From Actinomycetota bacterium (lineage in GTDB: Bacteria; Actinomycetota; Geothermincolia; Geothermincolales; RBG-13-55-18): DNA of 64,000 nt. Each line of letters starts with the position of its first letter. The stretch's first letter is position 1. The stretch covers positions 1-64,000 of the forward strand of contig JABLXL010000016.1 of the NCBI GenBank assembly GCA_013178005.1, given 5' to 3'. This document shows positions 43,972-54,601 of this stretch, in pieces. The notes under the pieces are model-generated. The model had not been told where the DNA came from. It did no database searches and was given only the letters and a program-made list of their open reading frames with translations. Position numbers and translations under genes: made by a program.

Positions 43972-44046
43972 GGGCGCTTAGCTCAGCGGGAGAGCGCTGC
44001 CTTCACACGGCAGAGGTCGAGGGTTCAAATCCCCCAGCGCCCACCA
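43972..44046 (+). tRNA. tRNA-Val (anticodon CAC)
   Basis: 75 nt including an encoded CCA. Acceptor GGGCGCT pairs with AGCGCCC, discriminator A, D-arm GCTC-AGCGGGA-GAGC, anticodon stem CTGCC/GGCAG with loop TTCACAC giving anticodon CAC (44004-44006), and T-arm GGGTTCAAATCCC. All four arms pair normally. Confidence 0.98.
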
Positions 44047-44294: not shown

Positions 44295-45692
44295 TCAGCC
44301 GCCCGAGATGCTTGCAGCCGGAGGCGCCATGGTTTTCCATGGCAAGAAGAGCGGTTCCGCCTCGTCGAGGCGACATCCCCGGAGGACGGAAGCGCCCGCC
44401 CGGTTCAGCTCGGCTGGATGCGAGAACGCCAGGTAGGTGATAACTCCCTTTTCCAGGGCCAGGTGGCAACATACCTCTCCCTCCGGCCCCTCGCAGCGCC
44501 CGAAGCCCTCGTTCCTCCCGCCCCGCCCTCGCCTGGCCTCGAGGGGTCGGCCGGGGGGACACTCCAGCACCTGACGAATGACCCTGAGCGATTCCGTTAC
44601 CTCCCGTGCCTTTACCGACAACAGGTCCGCGAAAAGGCTTCCCTCCCCGCGCACCGCTATCTCCCACCCGAGCAAAGCGTACGCCCCCGGTTCCTCAGCC
44701 CTCACGTCCACTTCCATGCCCAACGACCTCGCGAGGGGGCCGGTAAACGTCGCTTCCCCGGCCAGCTCACGCAGCCCCGCGAGCCTTTTCTCCATCCACC
44801 GTGGAGCGCGCATCCCCGCGATGCGCCCCGACAGCTCCTCCCAGCGCCGGGAGGTCTCGTTCAAGGAGGCAAGTATCTCCTCCGCGACCTCGATGGGGAA
44901 GCTTTCCCTGACTCCTCCCGGGACCACCCAACCCCTGCCGAGGGGGTCCCCCAGCCAGGACGAGACGGCCTCCTCCAGGACATGGCACAATTCGCGGCAG
45001 GCCGCGCCTAACCGGCGCTTTCCCAACAAAGCGACCGCCTCCCCCATCCACGACAGGTGCGACTGCGCCCGCGCCGATTCCAGGAGCAGGGCGCGCAATG
45101 CCATGGCGGCGGGGGGTACCTTCATCCCCCTCGCCTCCTCGCAGGCCTGGGCGAAGGAAAGGGCGCGGGCTACGCCTTCGTACCCTCCGGCCTTCTCCAG
45201 GGCCTCGCATGCTTGGGCGGCCTTCGACCCGCGCAGGACAACGCCGGGACATTCCACCCACGCTTCCGCCAATCCAGTCACGCGTCCCGCCTCCACGGCC
45301 ACGAGACATCCCTCCCAGGCCAGGAGGACCGGCGCGTCAAGGTCCCTCGGCATGCCCTCTTCCGCTCCGCGCAGCGCAGTCATCCAGCGTGAGGCGGCGG
45401 GGAAGGAGGCAACGGCCTCGGGCAACAGGCACCTGCCCCCCTCCGCCCTCAGGTGCAGGGTCTCCCCATCGCGCGGGTTGTGGAAATGGAGGGTACCCCC
45501 TTCCGCCGGTCCCGGCGAGAACATGATCAGGCGCAAGCCCTGCGCGGCGAGAAACTCCAGGCGGGCGCCGTGGTCTCCCCGCACGTCGTCCAGCCAGACG
45601 CGCCGGGGCGGCCTCGCCATCGACCAGTCCACACCCTCCTCAGGCAACAGGCTCATCTGCCCTTCTCGCCCGTCGCCGGCTCCGCGCCCCAT
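44295..45692 (-). CDS. Hydrogenase-large-subunit/NuoD-like protein without nickel ligands
   Basis: 465 residues. The start at 45692 (MGRGAGDG) is 8 bp after the stop of the upstream antiporter-like gene with AGGTGG between. Several stretches follow the NuoD/group 4 hydrogenase large-subunit plan: VPPAAMALRALLLESARAQSH (the helix after the first metal motif), REVTESLRVIRQVLECPPG, and EGPEGEVCCHLALEKGVITYL (normally E-x-P-R-G-x). The CxxC pairs that hold Ni-Fe in hydrogenases are absent: the first site reads SFAQACEEARG and the C-terminal DPCxxC is missing. So it is a complex I-like or Ehr-like (energy-converting-hydrogenase-related) subunit, not a hydrogenase. Identification rests on these motifs and on its two neighbours. 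Confidence 0.65.
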   Translation of the reverse strand: MGRGAGDGREGQMSLLPEEGVDWSMARPPRRVWLDDVRGDHGARLEFLAAQGLRLIMFSPGPAEGGTLHFHNPRDGETLHLRAEGGRCLLPEAVASFPAASRWMTALRGAEEGMPRDLDAPVLLAWEGCLVAVEAGRVTGLAEAWVECPGVVLRGSKAAQACEALEKAGGYEGVARALSFAQACEEARGMKVPPAAMALRALLLESARAQSHLSWMGEAVALLGKRRLGAACRELCHVLEEAVSSWLGDPLGRGWVVPGGVRESFPIEVAEEILASLNETSRRWEELSGRIAGMRAPRWMEKRLAGLRELAGEATFTGPLARSLGMEVDVRAEEPGAYALLGWEIAVRGEGSLFADLLSVKAREVTESLRVIRQVLECPPGRPLEARRGRGGRNEGFGRCEGPEGEVCCHLALEKGVITYLAFSHPAELNRAGASVLRGCRLDEAEPLFLPWKTMAPPAASISGG

Positions 45693-45700
45693 CTTCCACC

Positions 45701-47317
45701 TCACCTCAACGCCAGGTAGGCCATGATCGCCGCCCATCCTATATACAGGAGAAGGCCGCAGGCAACGAGGGCAACGCGCGCTTTTTCTGTCGATGCGAAC
45801 ATCCGGCCGTGGAAGCGTCCCTTCGCGAGCAGGGGCAGCGCGCGCATGGGAGGCATCACATCAGACATCCCAGGCGCTTCCTTCTCCCTCGCCCACAGCG
45901 CCAAAAGCACCGCCGCCGGCACCGATAGCAGCAAGACGGCCGCGCCGAGGCTCTGCCACCCCGGCACGGGCAACTCCACAGGCAGTCCGTATTCGCGCAT
46001 GAGCAGGTCGATCATGGCGCCGGGAAAGAGGCCTACCACGACACAGGCTGCCGTCAGCCCTAAAGCGCCCAGCCAGGCTTCGCCGCGCGTTGTCTCCCCA
46101 TCCTTGGGGACGAGAAGAGAGGTCGTCCCCATGACCCATGACTGGGCTAATAGCAGCGGGAGGCACGCCATGAACAATACGGTGGTTCCTCCCGAGAAGG
46201 CTCCGTGCAGCGCGGAGAGGCCAAGCCAGAGCCAGGCGAAACCGGCCAGGGGCGGCATACCCATAAGCGACGCTCCGCCCACAACCTTGAACCAGCTCCC
46301 GCCCCTTGTCGCTCCCCTGCCCAGCTCCACCAGGGCCACCGCCGACAGGCCCGCCCAGAGCCCTACCCGCATCGCCGCCAGTGCCGACTGGCCGCCGGGA
46401 GCGGCCACCAGCGCCAGTCCCGCCCCCAGCGAGGAGCAGAGCAACCCCGTGACTTCCCCTCCCTCACGCGCCGAGAGCAGCTCGCGGGAAACCACGAGCG
46501 CGGATATGGAAGCGACCCCCAGGCAGGCCCATGTCCATGCGCCGCCCCAGACGAAAACCAGGCGCGCCACGGCGAAGAGCAGAAAGGCGCCCAGGCTGAG
46601 GTCCACGGCGAGGACATGCACAAGGATTATATCCCTGCCGCCGCGCGAAACTTCCGGCATCCATAAGTGTGTGGGAAACATTCCCAATCGCAGTAACGCG
46701 GCGGCCAGCATCAGCGCGCACGCAGCCGCGTACGCCCCTTCCGGCCGTAGGGGGGCGGGAGGAAACAACAACCCCCGCGTGGGGTCCGCGCGGTAGAAGA
46801 AGAGAACCCCCAGCGCCAGGCAGAGATCGGATAACGCCAGAGGGAAAACCCAGGGCAGCGATCGGCCCGCCGCGCTCCCGCGCAGGACCATGACAGAGAT
46901 AAAGCACCACGTGGTCAGGGCGCACATTCCGGCAAGGAGAAAGAAATGGTCGGACATGGCGGCGGTGAGGGCCGCGGCCACGGAAAAGCATGCGAGGGCC
47001 GAAGTCGCCTGGCTTCTCTTCCCGTCCCTAACCCCTCCTCTCCGCGACGCCAGCACGAAGAAGGGGGAGAGCGCTGCCAGTGGCAGGACGAAAGCCATCC
47101 TGTGCGGGGTGAGCTCCAGCCGCCACAGCGCGAACGACTCCGGTCCTACGTGGTGGTCCCAGAGGCGGTAGGCCAGCACCGCCGCCGTCGGCATGGAGAG
47201 CAGACACCACGCTGAAGCCACCCGGCGCAGCGCGCGCATAGTCACGGCGGCGAGGTAGAGCAGGCCGGCGATTGCGGCGGCAAGGGGCATGGCAGCAAGC
47301 GAGTGAACCGCCCTCAA
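45701..47317 (-). CDS. Proton-antiporter-like membrane subunit (NuoL/NuoM/MrpD-like)
   Basis: 538 residues with about 14 membrane segments. PTHLWMPEVSRGGRDIILVHVLAVDLSLGAFLLF corresponds to the family's LHxWLPxAHxxAP...GxY region, and GGSWFKVVGGASLMGMPPLAGFAWLW matches the second-half motif. The MrpA-like lysines are not all assignable. A TTG start at 47317 follows GGAGG from within the end of the upstream gene; the open frame continues to 47353. It overlaps no other gene after this choice and is followed 8 bp later by the large-subunit-like gene. Predicted to pump or translocate ions as part of a membrane complex. Confidence 0.75.
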   Translation of the reverse strand: MRAVHSLAAMPLAAAIAGLLYLAAVTMRALRRVASAWCLLSMPTAAVLAYRLWDHHVGPESFALWRLELTPHRMAFVLPLAALSPFFVLASRRGGVRDGKRSQATSALACFSVAAALTAAMSDHFFLLAGMCALTTWCFISVMVLRGSAAGRSLPWVFPLALSDLCLALGVLFFYRADPTRGLLFPPAPLRPEGAYAAACALMLAAALLRLGMFPTHLWMPEVSRGGRDIILVHVLAVDLSLGAFLLFAVARLVFVWGGAWTWACLGVASISALVVSRELLSAREGGEVTGLLCSSLGAGLALVAAPGGQSALAAMRVGLWAGLSAVALVELGRGATRGGSWFKVVGGASLMGMPPLAGFAWLWLGLSALHGAFSGGTTVLFMACLPLLLAQSWVMGTTSLLVPKDGETTRGEAWLGALGLTAACVVVGLFPGAMIDLLMREYGLPVELPVPGWQSLGAAVLLLSVPAAVLLALWAREKEAPGMSDVMPPMRALPLLAKGRFHGRMFASTEKARVALVACGLLLYIGWAAIMAYLALR

Positions 47318-47321
47318 AGCC

Positions 47322-48215
47322 CTATCCTCCGTACGCTGCCGCGGCCAGGGCAAGGGCCAGCGAAACCATCCCTAAAAGCGGGGCGACCAATAGAACTCGG
47401 CGTCTGAGAACCGCGTCCCGTACCTCCAGCCAGGCGCGGCCGGCGGTGGCCGCGGTCGCGATCCCGAGGCACGAGGCCCCCCAGGAAAGCGCCCCGACCG
47501 CTCCTTTCCACGGGTAGCCGAGACACACCAGGGCAAGGAGAAGCACGGTGACCGCTCTCTCCGCCCATTCCGCAACAGCCGCCGGGGCCGTTATCACGAC
47601 CTCACTGCCCCGGCGCCTTGCCACAGATCCATATGGAGGCCGGCCCAGGAGAAACACGAACAGCGCAACCACCGCGCACGCCTGGGAGGAGAGGATGAGC
47701 GCGAAGCCGGGACCGCTCCAGGCGCGAACCGCATCCAACGCCCCCTGGGCGTTGAATCCCTCCAGTTCGGGCGCGAACCCTCCGGGGTAGCGAAGGCTCA
47801 CCGCGACGGCCGCGCAGGCGAGGGCGAGGAGGCGCGCGAACGCCTCGCGAAAGAACAGGGGGACGCGCGCCGTGGACTCCGCGTCCGAGCAGGCAATCCA
47901 TGCCAGGGGAATAAGGCCGGTTACCGAGATCATCAGGGCGAGCGAGAGGAGGTCCCCCTCAACCCAGACCAGGAACACACCCGCCACCCCCATGGCCGCC
48001 GCCGGCAGCAGGGCGGCGATCGCGTCGCCCAGCGACGGCGACGGCGGAAGCGCGGTCAAGCCGGCCAGGGGACTTTTCGTTTGCTCCTCCCCGCCTCCCA
48101 GCGCCCTGGCCAGCCCGCGTTCAGCGAAGAGGACCACCAGGCCGCAGGAGGCCATGAAGAGAAGCCCCGGAAAGAAAAGCACCTTGAGCAGATCCGTGGC
48201 TATTTGCAACCGCAT
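47322..48215 (-). CDS. NuoH/HyfC-like membrane subunit
   Basis: 297 residues, about eight membrane segments. FPGLLFMASCGLVVLFAERGLARALGG fits the first helix of NuoH/HyfC (PG-x5-G-x4-x-ERK-x-x-A-R), and EGFNAQGALDAVRAW and VAEWAERAVTVLLLALV lie where the quinone-chamber helices are. The acidic loop motifs are diverged. A GTG at 48218 directly precedes the ATG. It is the first gene of the three-gene module and diverges from the DNA-glycosylase gene. In intact complexes this subunit links the membrane arm to the soluble arm. Confidence 0.68.
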   Translation of the reverse strand: MRLQIATDLLKVLFFPGLLFMASCGLVVLFAERGLARALGGGEEQTKSPLAGLTALPPSPSLGDAIAALLPAAAMGVAGVFLVWVEGDLLSLALMISVTGLIPLAWIACSDAESTARVPLFFREAFARLLALACAAVAVSLRYPGGFAPELEGFNAQGALDAVRAWSGPGFALILSSQACAVVALFVFLLGRPPYGSVARRRGSEVVITAPAAVAEWAERAVTVLLLALVCLGYPWKGAVGALSWGASCLGIATAATAGRAWLEVRDAVLRRRVLLVAPLLGMVSLALALAAAAYGG

Positions 48216-48412
48216 CACCCTCGCCGTGCCCGCCGCTCGCGCGCGTCCGTCTCCGGCTATAGACTAGCACATGACGTGGGCCTTCGCGCCCGCCATCTTT
48301 TTCCACCCGTCTGTCGCACGACCCGCCTGGTCGCTCCCCCGGGATCCTCTGCCCCAGAAAGAACGCCGTCCCTTCCATGTCCCCGAGCCGACAAGTGCGT
48401 GACCACCTGCTG

Positions 48413-48425
48413 TATAATCACCCCA
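48413..48425 (+). promoter_or_regulatory. Promoter for leaderless glycosylase gene
   Basis: TATAAT at 48413-48418 followed by six bases (CACCCC) and ATG at 48425; no Shine-Dalgarno sequence. GACAAG 17 bp upstream could be a weak -35. Same design as at 23988 and 57333. Confidence 0.65.
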
Positions 48426-49312
48426 TGAGAACGATCTGCATGGGTCCGTACAACTTCGCCCTCTCCTGGCGCCTGTTTTCCGCCTACGCGGCCGGGAACG
48501 CCAGCGAGCGCGGCTCCGTGGCCATATGGTGGGACGGAAAGCCCACCCTCCTCTACCTCCGGCAGACGCGTGAGGAGCCGCCGGTGATCGAGCTCATCGC
48601 CGATCCCATGCCGGCGCGGGCGCGCGAATTCCAGTCAATGGTAAGAAAGATGCTCCACGCGGACCTTGACCTGGAGCCCTTTTACCGCCGCGCCCGCCGC
48701 GACAAGGCGCTGCGCCCGGTGGTAAACGCCTTGGTAGGGCTGAAGCCGGTGCGCCCCCCGGACATGTTCCAGATGATGGTAATAGCCCTGAGCGAGCAAC
48801 AGGTGTCCATGGCCGCAGCCCACCGCGTGCGCGAGCGCTTCCTCTCCGCATTCGGCGCCAGGGCGGGGCGCCTCTTCGCCTTCCCTCGAGCCGCAGATAT
48901 CGCCGCCCTTGAGGCCAAGGACCTGCGAGCATGCGGTTTTTCCGCGCGCAAGGCCGAGTACCTCGTCTCGCTGGCTTGCAAGATCGCCGGAGGAGAGATG
49001 GATATCGCATCCTGGGAGGGAATGGCAGACGGCGAGCTCATAGACCTCTTGCGCGGCTATCCCGGCATAGGGGAATGGACCGCGGAATACCTGCTGGTGC
49101 GCGGATTGGGTCGCCTGGATGTCGTCCCCGCCTCCGACCTCGGCGTGCGCCGCGTCGTGGGCCGTTACCTGGCCGGGGGAAGAGAACCGACCTCCGCCGA
49201 GGTACGCGAGCTGCTGGCGAAATGGAGCCCCTGGCGCGGCCTGGTGGCCTTTTACCTCCTCGCCCACCACCGCATGGCAACTGATGGCAGAAATTGGAGC
49301 CTTCCCACTTGA
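48425..49312 (+). CDS. AlkA-like DNA-3-methyladenine glycosylase
   Basis: 295 residues. It excises alkylated bases from DNA. HhH-GPD domain: MVIALSEQQVSMAAAHRVRERF, helix-hairpin-helix LRGYPGIGEWTAEYLLVRGLG and catalytic Asp in VVPASDLGVRRVV (about residue 239). The N-terminal about 110 residues are the AlkA-type beta domain. ATG at 48425 chosen because TATAAT lies six bases upstream and the family begins near here; a start at 48377 would lie before the promoter. Fits with the SOS genes nearby, but has its own promoter. Confidence 0.9.
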   Translation: MRTICMGPYNFALSWRLFSAYAAGNASERGSVAIWWDGKPTLLYLRQTREEPPVIELIADPMPARAREFQSMVRKMLHADLDLEPFYRRARRDKALRPVVNALVGLKPVRPPDMFQMMVIALSEQQVSMAAAHRVRERFLSAFGARAGRLFAFPRAADIAALEAKDLRACGFSARKAEYLVSLACKIAGGEMDIASWEGMADGELIDLLRGYPGIGEWTAEYLLVRGLGRLDVVPASDLGVRRVVGRYLAGGREPTSAEVRELLAKWSPWRGLVAFYLLAHHRMATDGRNWSLPT

Positions 49313-49490: not shown

Positions 49491-51851
49491 CTACGGCCTG
49501 GAAACGGGACGGACGATCCATATGGGGCTGGACCAGGCGCAGTGGCCGTCCTCCTGTTCCACCCGCAGGTAGAAAAACCCGTCGCCTCGAAGGTCACCGT
49601 CGGTGAAGTCGAAGGATGCCTCGGCGGCGCCGGAGGCCGTCCAGGCGACGGTGTATCCCCGCTCGTCGTGGCGGAGCAGCTCCGCCGAACGCAGCCGGGC
49701 GGTGCCCAGGATGCGTCCCTGCAGTCTTGGGCTGCCGGCGCAGAAACATTCCGTGCCCATGGGCAGGCCGTCCGCGTAGAACTCGAGCACCATGCGCGCG
49801 CCCGTGGTGCCGTAAACCCTGCGGTTCCATAGCGCCCTCCACAGCGACTGGGGGGTAAGCTCGTCCGCCCATATGGCGGTGAGGCCACGGGGGTAGATGT
49901 CGATGGGGTGGAAGCGCTCGTCCACGGCGTAATCGTGGCGGTCGCTGCCGGCGATGATCCCCAGCCGCAGCCCCGAGGCCAGGGCCTCCTGCACGTAGTT
50001 GCCGAACCCCGGCCGGCTGCGGTCGTCCCTGAGGAAACGGGGGAACCATCCCCGGGGGTCTCCATGGGTTATGGGAAAAGGGCCGTCATAGCTTTCCGAG
50101 CTGCCGTGCATGCTGTATATCTCCACCAGGCGCTGCTGCTCGTTCTCGGGGCTCCACCAGGTGTAGGCCTCCGGCACCCTCATCCTCAGGAACTTCAACC
50201 AGTTGAAAAGGGCTATGAAGATGCGGCGCCAAGCGGTGTGATGAGGTATCACCAGGGCGTCGCGTTCCGCGAGCAGCGCCTCGAGCTTGGCAGGCGTGTC
50301 GCTCTCCGCGTCCACCCAGCTGAAAAGCTGCGGGTCCTTTTCCTCCGGGGCGTAATAGACGCCTCTGTGCCCCCATTTATGGTCCGACCACTCGTAACCG
50401 AGTAAGGTGACGAACCTGCCGGGTTGGTTGTACTCAGCCTGCAGGCGCTTCGCCAGTTCCCATTCCTCCTCCCTGCCCGAGGGCTCGAAGAGATCCATGG
50501 TGTCGTGGGTGGTGATGGCCGCGAAGTCGAGGCCCAGGACGTCCCTTGATTCTCGGTAAAAGGCGCCCGGCTCCATGCACCCGTCACACAAGGCCGTGTG
50601 CGCGTGCAGGTCCCCCCAGTAGAGGCGCAGGTCTCCCCCTACCGTCACGGGATTGCTCTCCCCCGCCAGGCCTTCGCCCACCGCGCCCACGCGGTAAACG
50701 CCAGGGTGGTTCATCTCACAGGGCACGGCAACCACCCCGCGGTCCTCGGGTCGGAATTCGACCCGGTAAGGGGCATTCATACCCTCCGCGGGAAGCAATT
50801 GCACTTCCCCTGTAAAGGTGGGATCGACCTCGCCCTTTGCGTCCACGGCCCGGACCAGGAGCCTGGCCCGGCCGTCTCCGTCGCAGGAGGAGAGCACGGG
50901 CTGCAGGGAGACCGCCTTGCCGCCCACCGCCTCCAGCGCGGGGCAGTCCGCGATGAGGCGGTATATCCCCGTCGCCCTCTCGTCCACCTCCACCGCCACG
51001 TCCACCCGGGAGGGATGGGCGGGCGAGGACCAACCGCCGCTGCCCTTGCTCCTGTCCCCCATGGTGATGACTATCTCGTCGCCCTCGCTCAGGCGTTCGC
51101 CCCTGACGCGGATGCGTATCTTCCTCAGTTCCAGGTAGAGGTAGAAAACATCCAGGCGCTCAAGCTTGACCCCGCACCTTCGCAGGAACTCGCGGCCCAG
51201 GAAGCGCACCGCGCCCCGCAGAGGGAAATACCCCTGGGACGCCACCTCCAGGCGGGCTTTGCCCGCGGTACGCAGCTCGCAGGAATAATAGTTGGGGAGC
51301 CTGGGGTAACGGTTCTGTTTGGAGCCCCAGCCGTCGGCATAAAGAAAAGTGGGGCGCACGCCCTTGTCCCCGAAATCGATGAGGCGGCAGAAAGCGATCT
51401 TGATGCCGCCGTCCTCGGATATACCCCCGGGCCCGCAGCGAAAATGAAGCTTTACCGTCTGTTTTCCTTCGCCCGCACGCACCATGGCGGGCTCCAGCCA
51501 AGCCTCCCCAGGGGCCATCTCGCGAGATGGCCTCGGCTTGCGCCCCGGGCGAAAGAACTCGGGTTCGTAGAGGTAATCCATCACACCGAAGGCGATGGTT
51601 CCAGCCGCGGCGCCCAGCGCGGCTGCCGGCAGCGCCAGTATCGCCTTCGCCGCCTTGCGGAAAATCCCGCCCGCCTTCTTTTTCTTCGCTGGAAGTTCTT
51701 GGTATCTGCGCCCGGTTCGCCCGCCGTTTCCGGTCGCGGGCGCAAGTCCCCCGCTCCTCTTTCCCCTCGCCGACGGGACGCTGTGCCCGCATTGGATCCG
51801 GCCTTCTCCCTGTCGCCTGCCCGGTGGAACCTTTCTTTTCTCTCTCCTCAT
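49491..51851 (-). CDS. DUF3604 domain protein (PHP-like metal hydrolase)
   Basis: 786 residues. An N-terminal basic segment and a membrane helix (about 90-112) precede a beta-rich region (about 130-430) and the DUF3604 domain. Metal-type motifs resemble the PHP phosphoesterase fold: YWGDLHAHTALCDG, TTHDTMDL, VIPHHTAWR and IIAGSDRHDYAVDE. GGAGAGAGAA precedes the ATG. It probably acts in the envelope. The substrate is unknown; the function of the family is not established. Confidence 0.88.
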   Translation of the reverse strand: MRREKRKVPPGRRQGEGRIQCGHSVPSARGKRSGGLAPATGNGGRTGRRYQELPAKKKKAGGIFRKAAKAILALPAAALGAAAGTIAFGVMDYLYEPEFFRPGRKPRPSREMAPGEAWLEPAMVRAGEGKQTVKLHFRCGPGGISEDGGIKIAFCRLIDFGDKGVRPTFLYADGWGSKQNRYPRLPNYYSCELRTAGKARLEVASQGYFPLRGAVRFLGREFLRRCGVKLERLDVFYLYLELRKIRIRVRGERLSEGDEIVITMGDRSKGSGGWSSPAHPSRVDVAVEVDERATGIYRLIADCPALEAVGGKAVSLQPVLSSCDGDGRARLLVRAVDAKGEVDPTFTGEVQLLPAEGMNAPYRVEFRPEDRGVVAVPCEMNHPGVYRVGAVGEGLAGESNPVTVGGDLRLYWGDLHAHTALCDGCMEPGAFYRESRDVLGLDFAAITTHDTMDLFEPSGREEEWELAKRLQAEYNQPGRFVTLLGYEWSDHKWGHRGVYYAPEEKDPQLFSWVDAESDTPAKLEALLAERDALVIPHHTAWRRIFIALFNWLKFLRMRVPEAYTWWSPENEQQRLVEIYSMHGSSESYDGPFPITHGDPRGWFPRFLRDDRSRPGFGNYVQEALASGLRLGIIAGSDRHDYAVDERFHPIDIYPRGLTAIWADELTPQSLWRALWNRRVYGTTGARMVLEFYADGLPMGTECFCAGSPRLQGRILGTARLRSAELLRHDERGYTVAWTASGAAEASFDFTDGDLRGDGFFYLRVEQEDGHCAWSSPIWIVRPVSRP

Positions 51852-53725: not shown

Positions 53726-53977
53726 CTACTCCTCGCCGTGCACGCGCACCAGGCTCCAGCTCATACCCTCGGTGGAGAAACGCAGCTCGTACACCTCGGG
53801 GTTGTCGCTCATCACCGAGTAGTAGAGCTCGAGGTAACGCCCCTTCATGGCGCGGTAGGTCCCCAGCACCCGCCGGATCTCGTACCTCCTGCCGCGCCAG
53901 AGAAAAACGGTGGGGCGAAGTTTTCCGCCGCGGAACACCGCCGCCACGTCCACCGGCTCCTCAACGAGAGTCACCAT
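53726..53977 (-). CDS. DUF6504 family protein
   Basis: 83 residues. Start at 53977 (MVTLVEEPVDVAAVFRG) chosen for GGAGGAGGAGG just upstream; the open frame extends to 54202 only because it runs into the duplicated copy. The family is a small beta-rich domain usually next to Y-family polymerase genes in Actinobacteria and relatives, as here (dinB starts 175 bp downstream). RGRRYEIRRVLGTYRAMKGRYLELYYSV is the conserved core. Presumed accessory factor for translesion synthesis; unproven. Confidence 0.82.
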   Translation of the reverse strand: MVTLVEEPVDVAAVFRGGKLRPTVFLWRGRRYEIRRVLGTYRAMKGRYLELYYSVMSDNPEVYELRFSTEGMSWSLVRVHGEE

Positions 53978-54255
53978 CTCGAAATCCTCCTCCTCCCGGG
54001 CACCGCTCGCTTGGGCGCCGCTTCGCGACCAGCCGTCATACGTTCCGGAAACCATCCCGGATCCCCCGGCCCCCCTCGCCCAAGCGCGAACGGCCACCTC
54101 CCGACGTCCCGCCCAGGGAAGCGGCGTTGCGGCGGCAACGGCCAGGGGGCAAGACCGGTTTTCCGCCGCGGAACACCGCCGCCACGTCCACCGGCTCCTC
54201 AACGAGAGTCACCATCTCGAACTCCTCCTCCTCCCGGGCACCGCTCGCTTGGGCG
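53920..54255 (-). repeat. Direct repeat duplicating the DUF6504 gene start
   Basis: A 98 bp unit at 53920-54017, covering the ribosome-binding site and first 20 codons of the DUF6504 gene, is repeated at 54158-54255 (238 bp apart) with very few differences. The second copy (ATG at 54215) leads into a frame that loses the family sequence after AVFRGGKPVLP. Confidence 0.88.
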
Positions 54256-54601
54256 CGGGCGCCTTTCCCGACCTCCCGGCGGAGACGCAGGGAGGGCTTC
54301 ACGCCCTCCCTGGATGCCTCTTTTCGCGCGGCCTCGCGCCGCGTGGCTATGTGCGCGCGGGCCGGGACGCCGCCCGCGCCGTCTCCCGACACTCGGGAAA
54401 ACCCGAATCCACTATCCCGTACGGCCACGGGGGCGCTCGCCCGAGGCCCGGACCACGGCGGGAACTTTCCCGACGGGATATGTAACTCTCAACCGTATCC
54501 GAATCGTCGGCCCCAAACCGCAACAGGAACGGGCGCCCCAGGTTCTTACCCGCCGTGAGCTAAGGGTCCGCGCTCCGGCGCGATGTGAAATGGCCCGCTC
54601 C
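54256..54601. other. Spacer between the duplicated gene start and lexA
   Basis: 346 bp with no supported gene; open frames crossing it in the minus direction (about 54036-54428) contain the duplicated DUF6504 start but no recognisable protein after it. No terminator for lexA is obvious. Confidence 0.4.

Follow-up and report, generated by a model that had tools for sequence, protein, structure and literature searches.

It has long been asked how complex I transmits the redox energy of its soluble arm to the movement of ions in its membrane arm. Ehr complexes are related to group 4 hydrogenases, lack Ni-Fe ligands, and contain Mrp-like subunits (PMC6349859). DabB2 is a NuoL-like protein that pairs with a non-redox partner and is devoid of the regulatory ion-pair motifs (PMC13144422). 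Here, we describe a three-gene module, H-L-D, on a stretch of 64,000 nucleotides (hereafter, the window; positions 1 to 64,000 of contig JABLXL010000016.1, assembly GCA_013178005.1) from the genome of a Candidatus Solincola-type actinobacterium (3.6 Mb, ~97% complete). The module consists of three co-directional open reading frames (ORFs) on the minus strand (44295 to 48218), which code for a NuoH/HycD-like membrane subunit (H), a NuoL/Mrp-like subunit (L), and a NuoD/HycE-like large subunit (D). In our reading, to which we assign a probability of roughly 55%, the module descends by vertical inheritance from a minimal membrane complex, H-B-L-D, of the group 4 hydrogenase/complex I superfamily, in which B is a NuoB-like small subunit, and has become redox-silent while being kept by selection. 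The identity of the three subunits is well supported; the mechanism we infer. A published description of an H-L-D module was not found in the open-access literature searched.

Identity and residues of the three subunits

D is a member of the NuoD/49 kDa large-subunit superfamily. It matches PF00346 at 7e-15 (55.2 bits, with a cut-off of 24), its best E value with the NuoD/FpoD models is 1e-22 (residues ~189 to 430), and it is the sole PF00346 protein in the host genome. The best Foldseek match of its AlphaFold model (predicted local distance difference test [pLDDT] of 80, predicted template modeling score [pTM] of 0.84) was HycE of formate hydrogenlyase (TM score of 0.70, E = 5.7e-14), and complex I NuoD/NuoCD was also matched. 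The structural match to HycE spans the N-terminal domain of D as well. This domain is placed like a NuoC-type domain in the HycE fold match, but a domain-only sequence-profile test failed, and NuoC identity was rejected. The models of D and H were calculated from 15-sequence alignments mixing H-L-D and H-B-L-D versions.

Closer inspection of D revealed that both nickel-site motifs (RICxxC and the C-terminal CxxC), and with them all four nickel cysteines, are missing from all eight full-length family sequences. Asp139, Tyr87, and His38 of Nqo4 are functional residues of the quinone site of complex I. Asp139 of Thermus thermophilus Nqo4 aligns to Leu237 of D (P0003) in a phmmer alignment, and Tyr87 falls on Gly185 (P0003) in a register extended by hand beyond that alignment; neither position is conserved among the family members. 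We recognized no active site in D, whether for zinc or of another kind. Many other positions are invariant in the family, and an invariant GFGRxEGPxGExCCH motif includes the adjacent Cys423 and Cys424, followed by His425 (P0003).

H has no Pfam match, PF00146 included. Its probable NuoH identity is based on a profile comparison with the H subunit of class-mates, genomes of a second family (f4) of the same class, and on its predicted fold. In hhalign, the two H profiles matched with 88.8% (E = 2.5e-6, 251 columns), compared to 0.2 to 0.3% in H-against-L cross controls. The AlphaFold model (pLDDT of 79, pTM of 0.77) had HycD, NuoH, and MbhM as top Foldseek matches, with a probability of ~1.0 and TM scores of 0.5 to 0.63 but an E value of only ~0.007, and the alignment used for the model included class-mate H.

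L alone matches Proton_antipo_M weakly (0.028), but the profile comparison with class-mate L is clear (98.3%, E = 1.4e-14, 456 columns). The match to the Mrp-type subunits of the same genome (4.4e-6) covers only 92 columns, and class-mate L is therefore the closer relative. Elsewhere in the host genome, PF00361 has four matches in three ORFs, all in a single cluster on another contig that, judged by gene order, looks like an Mrp operon. The proton-transfer positions of L were read from an alignment with these Mrp-type subunits, with transmembrane helices (TM) numbered by our own assignment in the NuoL/Mrp convention. In all eight family members, the TM5 Glu is replaced by Ala, the TM7 Lys by Arg, and the TM12 Lys by Leu or Arg, and no residue substituting for the TM5 Glu and the TM12 Lys was identified. 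The TM8 His is retained in six of the eight. The TM6 Asp is invariant in both the H-L-D and the H-B-L-D versions, and the TM7 Arg is found in both. In NuoL, Asp178 is the ion-pair partner of Lys229 (PMC13144422), and from its spacing, the TM6 Asp of L may correspond to Asp178.

These residues bear on the possibility of a non-redox ion-coupled machine similar to DAB, in which L would conduct ions down the membrane potential and thereby power a conformational change or a chemical reaction in D. DabB2 is a precedent for a NuoL-like subunit with a non-redox partner (PMC13144422), and the TM6 Asp and TM7 Arg, present in all members, together with the TM8 His, would fit such a function. However, the loss of the TM5 Glu and the TM12 Lys without an identified replacement and the lack of a recognizable active site in D speak against it, and we consider such a machine unlikely.

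An earlier note on this DNA, made from the sequence alone, had described three tightly ordered NuoH-, NuoL-, and large-subunit-like genes without nickel ligands and without a soluble arm. If the starts favored by comparison with relatives are used, the spacing is indeed 4 bp (H-L) and 8 bp (L-D), within the 4 to 8 bp given. The lack of nickel ligands and of a soluble arm holds for all family members and is no accident of one contig. The note had made its proposal dependent on the kinship of D to NuoD, which is borne out by PF00346, the NuoD models, and the HycE/NuoD fold. Of the profile searches it had suggested against complex I and hydrogenases, that of D gave a clear result and that of L a clear one only profile against profile, whereas H remained without a Pfam match.

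The four-gene relative and the missing small subunit

The class-mate operons have the order H-B-L-D, with the small subunit gene located between H and L. Their products match NADHdh (PF00146, matched by H at 9e-12), Oxidored_q6 (6e-11), Proton_antipo_M (5e-15), and Complex1_49kDa (1e-11); in a second genome of this family, NiFeSe_Hases is matched at 1.8e-8. B has four invariant cysteines in CxGC, GDC, and GCP settings, a set consistent with one 4Fe-4S cluster. Three of the four nickel cysteines are present in class-mate D, which has RICxxS (second Cys replaced by Ser) and has kept the C-terminal CxxC. In most cases, class-mate D (L046-L053) extends no more than a few residues past its C-terminal CxxC, which sets it apart from hydrogenases that are trimmed during maturation. 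In class-mate L, the TM5 Glu is found in five and the TM12 Lys in six of seven sequences, along with the TM7 Arg. Both modules have homologous H, L, and D subunits in the same order (D against class-mate D in hhalign, E = 1e-22), and no ferredoxin or NADH subunit was recognized near either of them. The class-mate module differs in the presence of B and in having mostly kept the nickel cysteines of D and the TM5 Glu and TM12 Lys of L.

No NuoB-family protein is encoded within the window. The host genome has two PF01058 proteins, both on other contigs and each adjoining its own large subunit. The first has a twin-arginine-like N terminus (RRxFIK) and adjoins a full PF00374 large subunit; the second is VhuG-like and adjoins a VhuA-like subunit. 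The latter (L055:7801-9141, host contig C16) has RICGGD for RICGxC, with the second nickel cysteine replaced by Asp, and has kept the C-terminal CIPC. At E ≤ 0.001, a profile of class-mate B had zero matches in any of the 15 genomes of the family, compared to matches of 1e-45 to 1e-60 in eight class-mate genomes, and a looser search (E ≤ 1) of 11 family genomes and three class-mates gave only chance-level matches in the family. The H-L gaps of 227 to 398 bp in three relatives were considered as remnants of a small subunit gene, but the gaps of two sister genomes could not be aligned and share no ORF, and this idea was dropped. Neither a ferredoxin nor an NADH subunit was recognized among the ORFs around the module, although NuoI and the NADH module were not searched for genome-wide. 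As these are mostly draft genomes, what makes the absence of B convincing is chiefly its recurrence in all 15 of the family.

It is imaginable that the module still works as a redox complex, with a small subunit that another gene provides in trans or that was missed in the assembly. The genome does encode two PF01058 proteins, and it is ~97% rather than fully complete. However, both proteins have large subunits of their own next to them, B of the class-mate type is absent from 15/15 family genomes, and D has neither a nickel site nor the aligned quinone residues that a small subunit could serve; this explanation is improbable. Since the class-mate lineage has a four-gene H-B-L-D operon with an intact small subunit, the stripped H-L-D state looks derived, and B was most likely lost from an ancestral H-B-L-D complex rather than never present.

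In the D tree (47 sequences), window-type and class-mate D form one group (99/94) that is separate from the NuoD, group 4 [NiFe], and Ehr-like sequences (labels that we assigned from sequence motifs). The pairing of H-L-D with H-B-L-D is separately supported by the shared gene order, the comparison of the L subunits, and the presence of the TM6 Asp and the TM7 Arg in both. A short member of the known Ehr complexes would also combine a group 4-related large subunit without Ni-Fe ligands and an Mrp-like subunit (PMC6349859), and D and L do have these features. But the module has no small subunit, and the sampled actinobacterial Ehr-like sequences make up a clade of their own (100/98), although a tree uniting them with window-type D is not rejected; we give this assignment little credence.

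Distribution, selection, and surroundings of the locus

Among 31 genomes of the class (Geothermincolia), window-type D was found in nine, all from the family to which the window belongs (f1, uncultured actinobacteria) and one with only a contig-edge fragment, and the more distant D in eight genomes of f4. Window-type L was found in eight of 397 genomes sampled from the phylum, namely, the genome of the window and seven others of its family. The complete H-L-D module is present in the window and in seven further family genomes and in no other of the 397. Candidatus Solincola sediminis, S. daggyaiensis, and S. tengchongensis are among the named relatives. A glycosylase-like gene and a CehA/McbA-type hydrolase gene (Table 1) flank it in most family loci examined, and this conserved neighborhood speaks for vertical inheritance.

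H, L, and D are under purifying selection. Compared to a genus-mate, the ratio of nonsynonymous to synonymous substitution rates (dN/dS, Nei-Gojobori) is 0.27 for H, 0.27 for L, and 0.28 for D, values that are approximate because dS is ~0.8 to 1.0 in the genus-mate comparisons; two other close pairs gave 0.22 to 0.40. One could nevertheless regard the module as a decaying relic without function, since B and the active-site residues are lost, six family genomes have no confident D ortholog, and the module diverges faster than most of its neighbors (62 to 71% identity to the genus-mate, compared to 72 to 96% for the main flanking genes). However, eight intact, co-linear loci in four genera, a dN/dS of ~0.27 per gene, and the many invariant positions of D make decay very improbable.

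Table 1. Features of the H-L-D locus in the window
Feature	Position	Strand	Remark
H, NuoH/HycD-like membrane subunit	47322..48218	-	298 aa, P0001
L, NuoL/Mrp-like antiporter-type subunit	45701..47317	-	538 aa from family-conserved TTG start at 47317
D, NuoD/HycE-like large subunit with extra N-terminal alpha/beta domain	44295..45692	-	465 aa
H-L junction, position of the B gene in class-mate H-B-L-D operons	47318..47321	-	4 bp here
DNA-3-methyladenine glycosylase-like gene, divergent, outside module	48377..49312	+	Conserved neighbor
CehA/McbA-type metallohydrolase, outside module	49491..51851	-	Conserved neighbor in the window's family
tRNA-Val (cac), beyond the 3' end of D	43972..44046	+	Rfam

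The ORF of L is already open from 47353, upstream of the conserved TTG, and D could alternatively start at 45737 (480 aa) instead of at the ATG at 45692. An apparent L-D fusion of 1,013 aa in the genus-mate proved to be an open-frame artifact, as L sits in its own frame there. The Rfam scan of the window returned the tRNA alone, the promoter scan detected no promoter, and a phage origin was rejected, with zero PHROGs matches. A 99-bp direct repeat (53920 to 54018 and 54158 to 54256; 99% identical, 238 bp from start to start) overlaps a small minus-strand ORF (53726 to 54202).

Proposed role and comparison with known systems

The small subunit and the checked electron- and proton-transfer residues are missing, yet selection retains the module, and its role is therefore probably other than respiration; it is perhaps a partner- or ligand-gated membrane device. 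In our model, H and L would remain together as a small membrane arm, with D docked on H in the manner of HycE on HycD. Because there is no iron-sulfur subunit, no nickel site, and no recognizable quinone site, D is proposed to be no longer redox-active and might serve as a cytosolic docking or ligand-sensing domain with the new invariant motif. The state of D could be relayed through H to L, which would act as a gated conduit, a structural partner, or a sensor of the membrane potential and not as a redox-driven proton pump. Tentatively, and with more doubt than confidence, we extend this to a complex of the complex I superfamily without any redox chemistry, in which a non-catalytic sensor or binding large subunit gates a two-subunit membrane arm.

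Several points weigh against a redox-silent, retained derivative. The relatives examined are mostly draft metagenome-assembled genomes. A confident D ortholog is missing in six family genomes (no match in G006, G008, G009, G010, and G013 and only E = 8.8e-4 in G004), of which G006 and G010 are ~99% complete. The phmmer alignment of D with Nqo4 begins at Nqo4 residue 91, and the His38 loop is thus outside the compared region. Approximately unbiased (AU) tests do not reject a grouping of window-type D with Ehr-like sequences (p-AU = 0.33) or with NuoD (0.16). Finally, L may conduct some ions, since it has kept the TM6 Asp and, in most members, the TM8 His, and its TM7 residue (Arg) is charged.

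The earlier note had offered two explanations. Of a stripped ion-translocating complex with an unknown electron partner, the stripped and apparently derived state stands, but the electron partner is unlikely because B is absent genome-wide, the aligned quinone residues of D are gone, and L has lost two proton-transfer residues. The other was a new ion pump whose large subunit is non-catalytic; we doubt that the module pumps protons in the canonical way, but a version run by the membrane potential is kept as the alternative similar to DAB. The note had held that relatives encoding all soluble subunits with the module would speak decisively against it. This applies only in part, as the class-mates have one soluble FeS-type subunit; no ferredoxin or NADH subunit was recognized in the neighborhoods inspected. 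The four-subunit operon, with its FeS-type protein, and the three-subunit operon are a naturally reduced pair that offers a minimal system in which coupling between soluble and membrane parts can be separated from electron transfer, and the module bears on the gain and loss of parts in complex I and group 4 hydrogenases.

Compared to the core of the Escherichia coli formate hydrogenlyase (HycE, HycD, HycC, and HycG), HycE is the best fold match of D and HycD the top match of H, but a HycG-type small subunit, nickel ligands, and ferredoxin-like or formate dehydrogenase subunits are missing from the window module. Likewise, it has neither the two CxxC motifs nor the small subunit with the proximal FeS cluster that define group 4 [NiFe] hydrogenases. 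With complex I (NuoH, NuoL, and NuoD), it shares the folds and partial sequence similarity of three subunits; it differs in the lack of NuoB, of an NADH module recognized nearby, and of the aligned NuoD quinone and NuoL proton residues. With Ehr, it has in common the group 4 kinship, the missing Ni-Fe ligands, and the Mrp-like subunit, but it has no small subunit, and the sampled Ehr-like large subunits form their own clade. DAB (DabA-DabB) differs in its carbonic-anhydrase-like DabA, which the window module lacks, whereas the NuoH and NuoD homologs are found only in the latter; in both, a NuoL-like membrane protein is combined with a soluble partner, and an electron carrier is lacking (PMC13144422).

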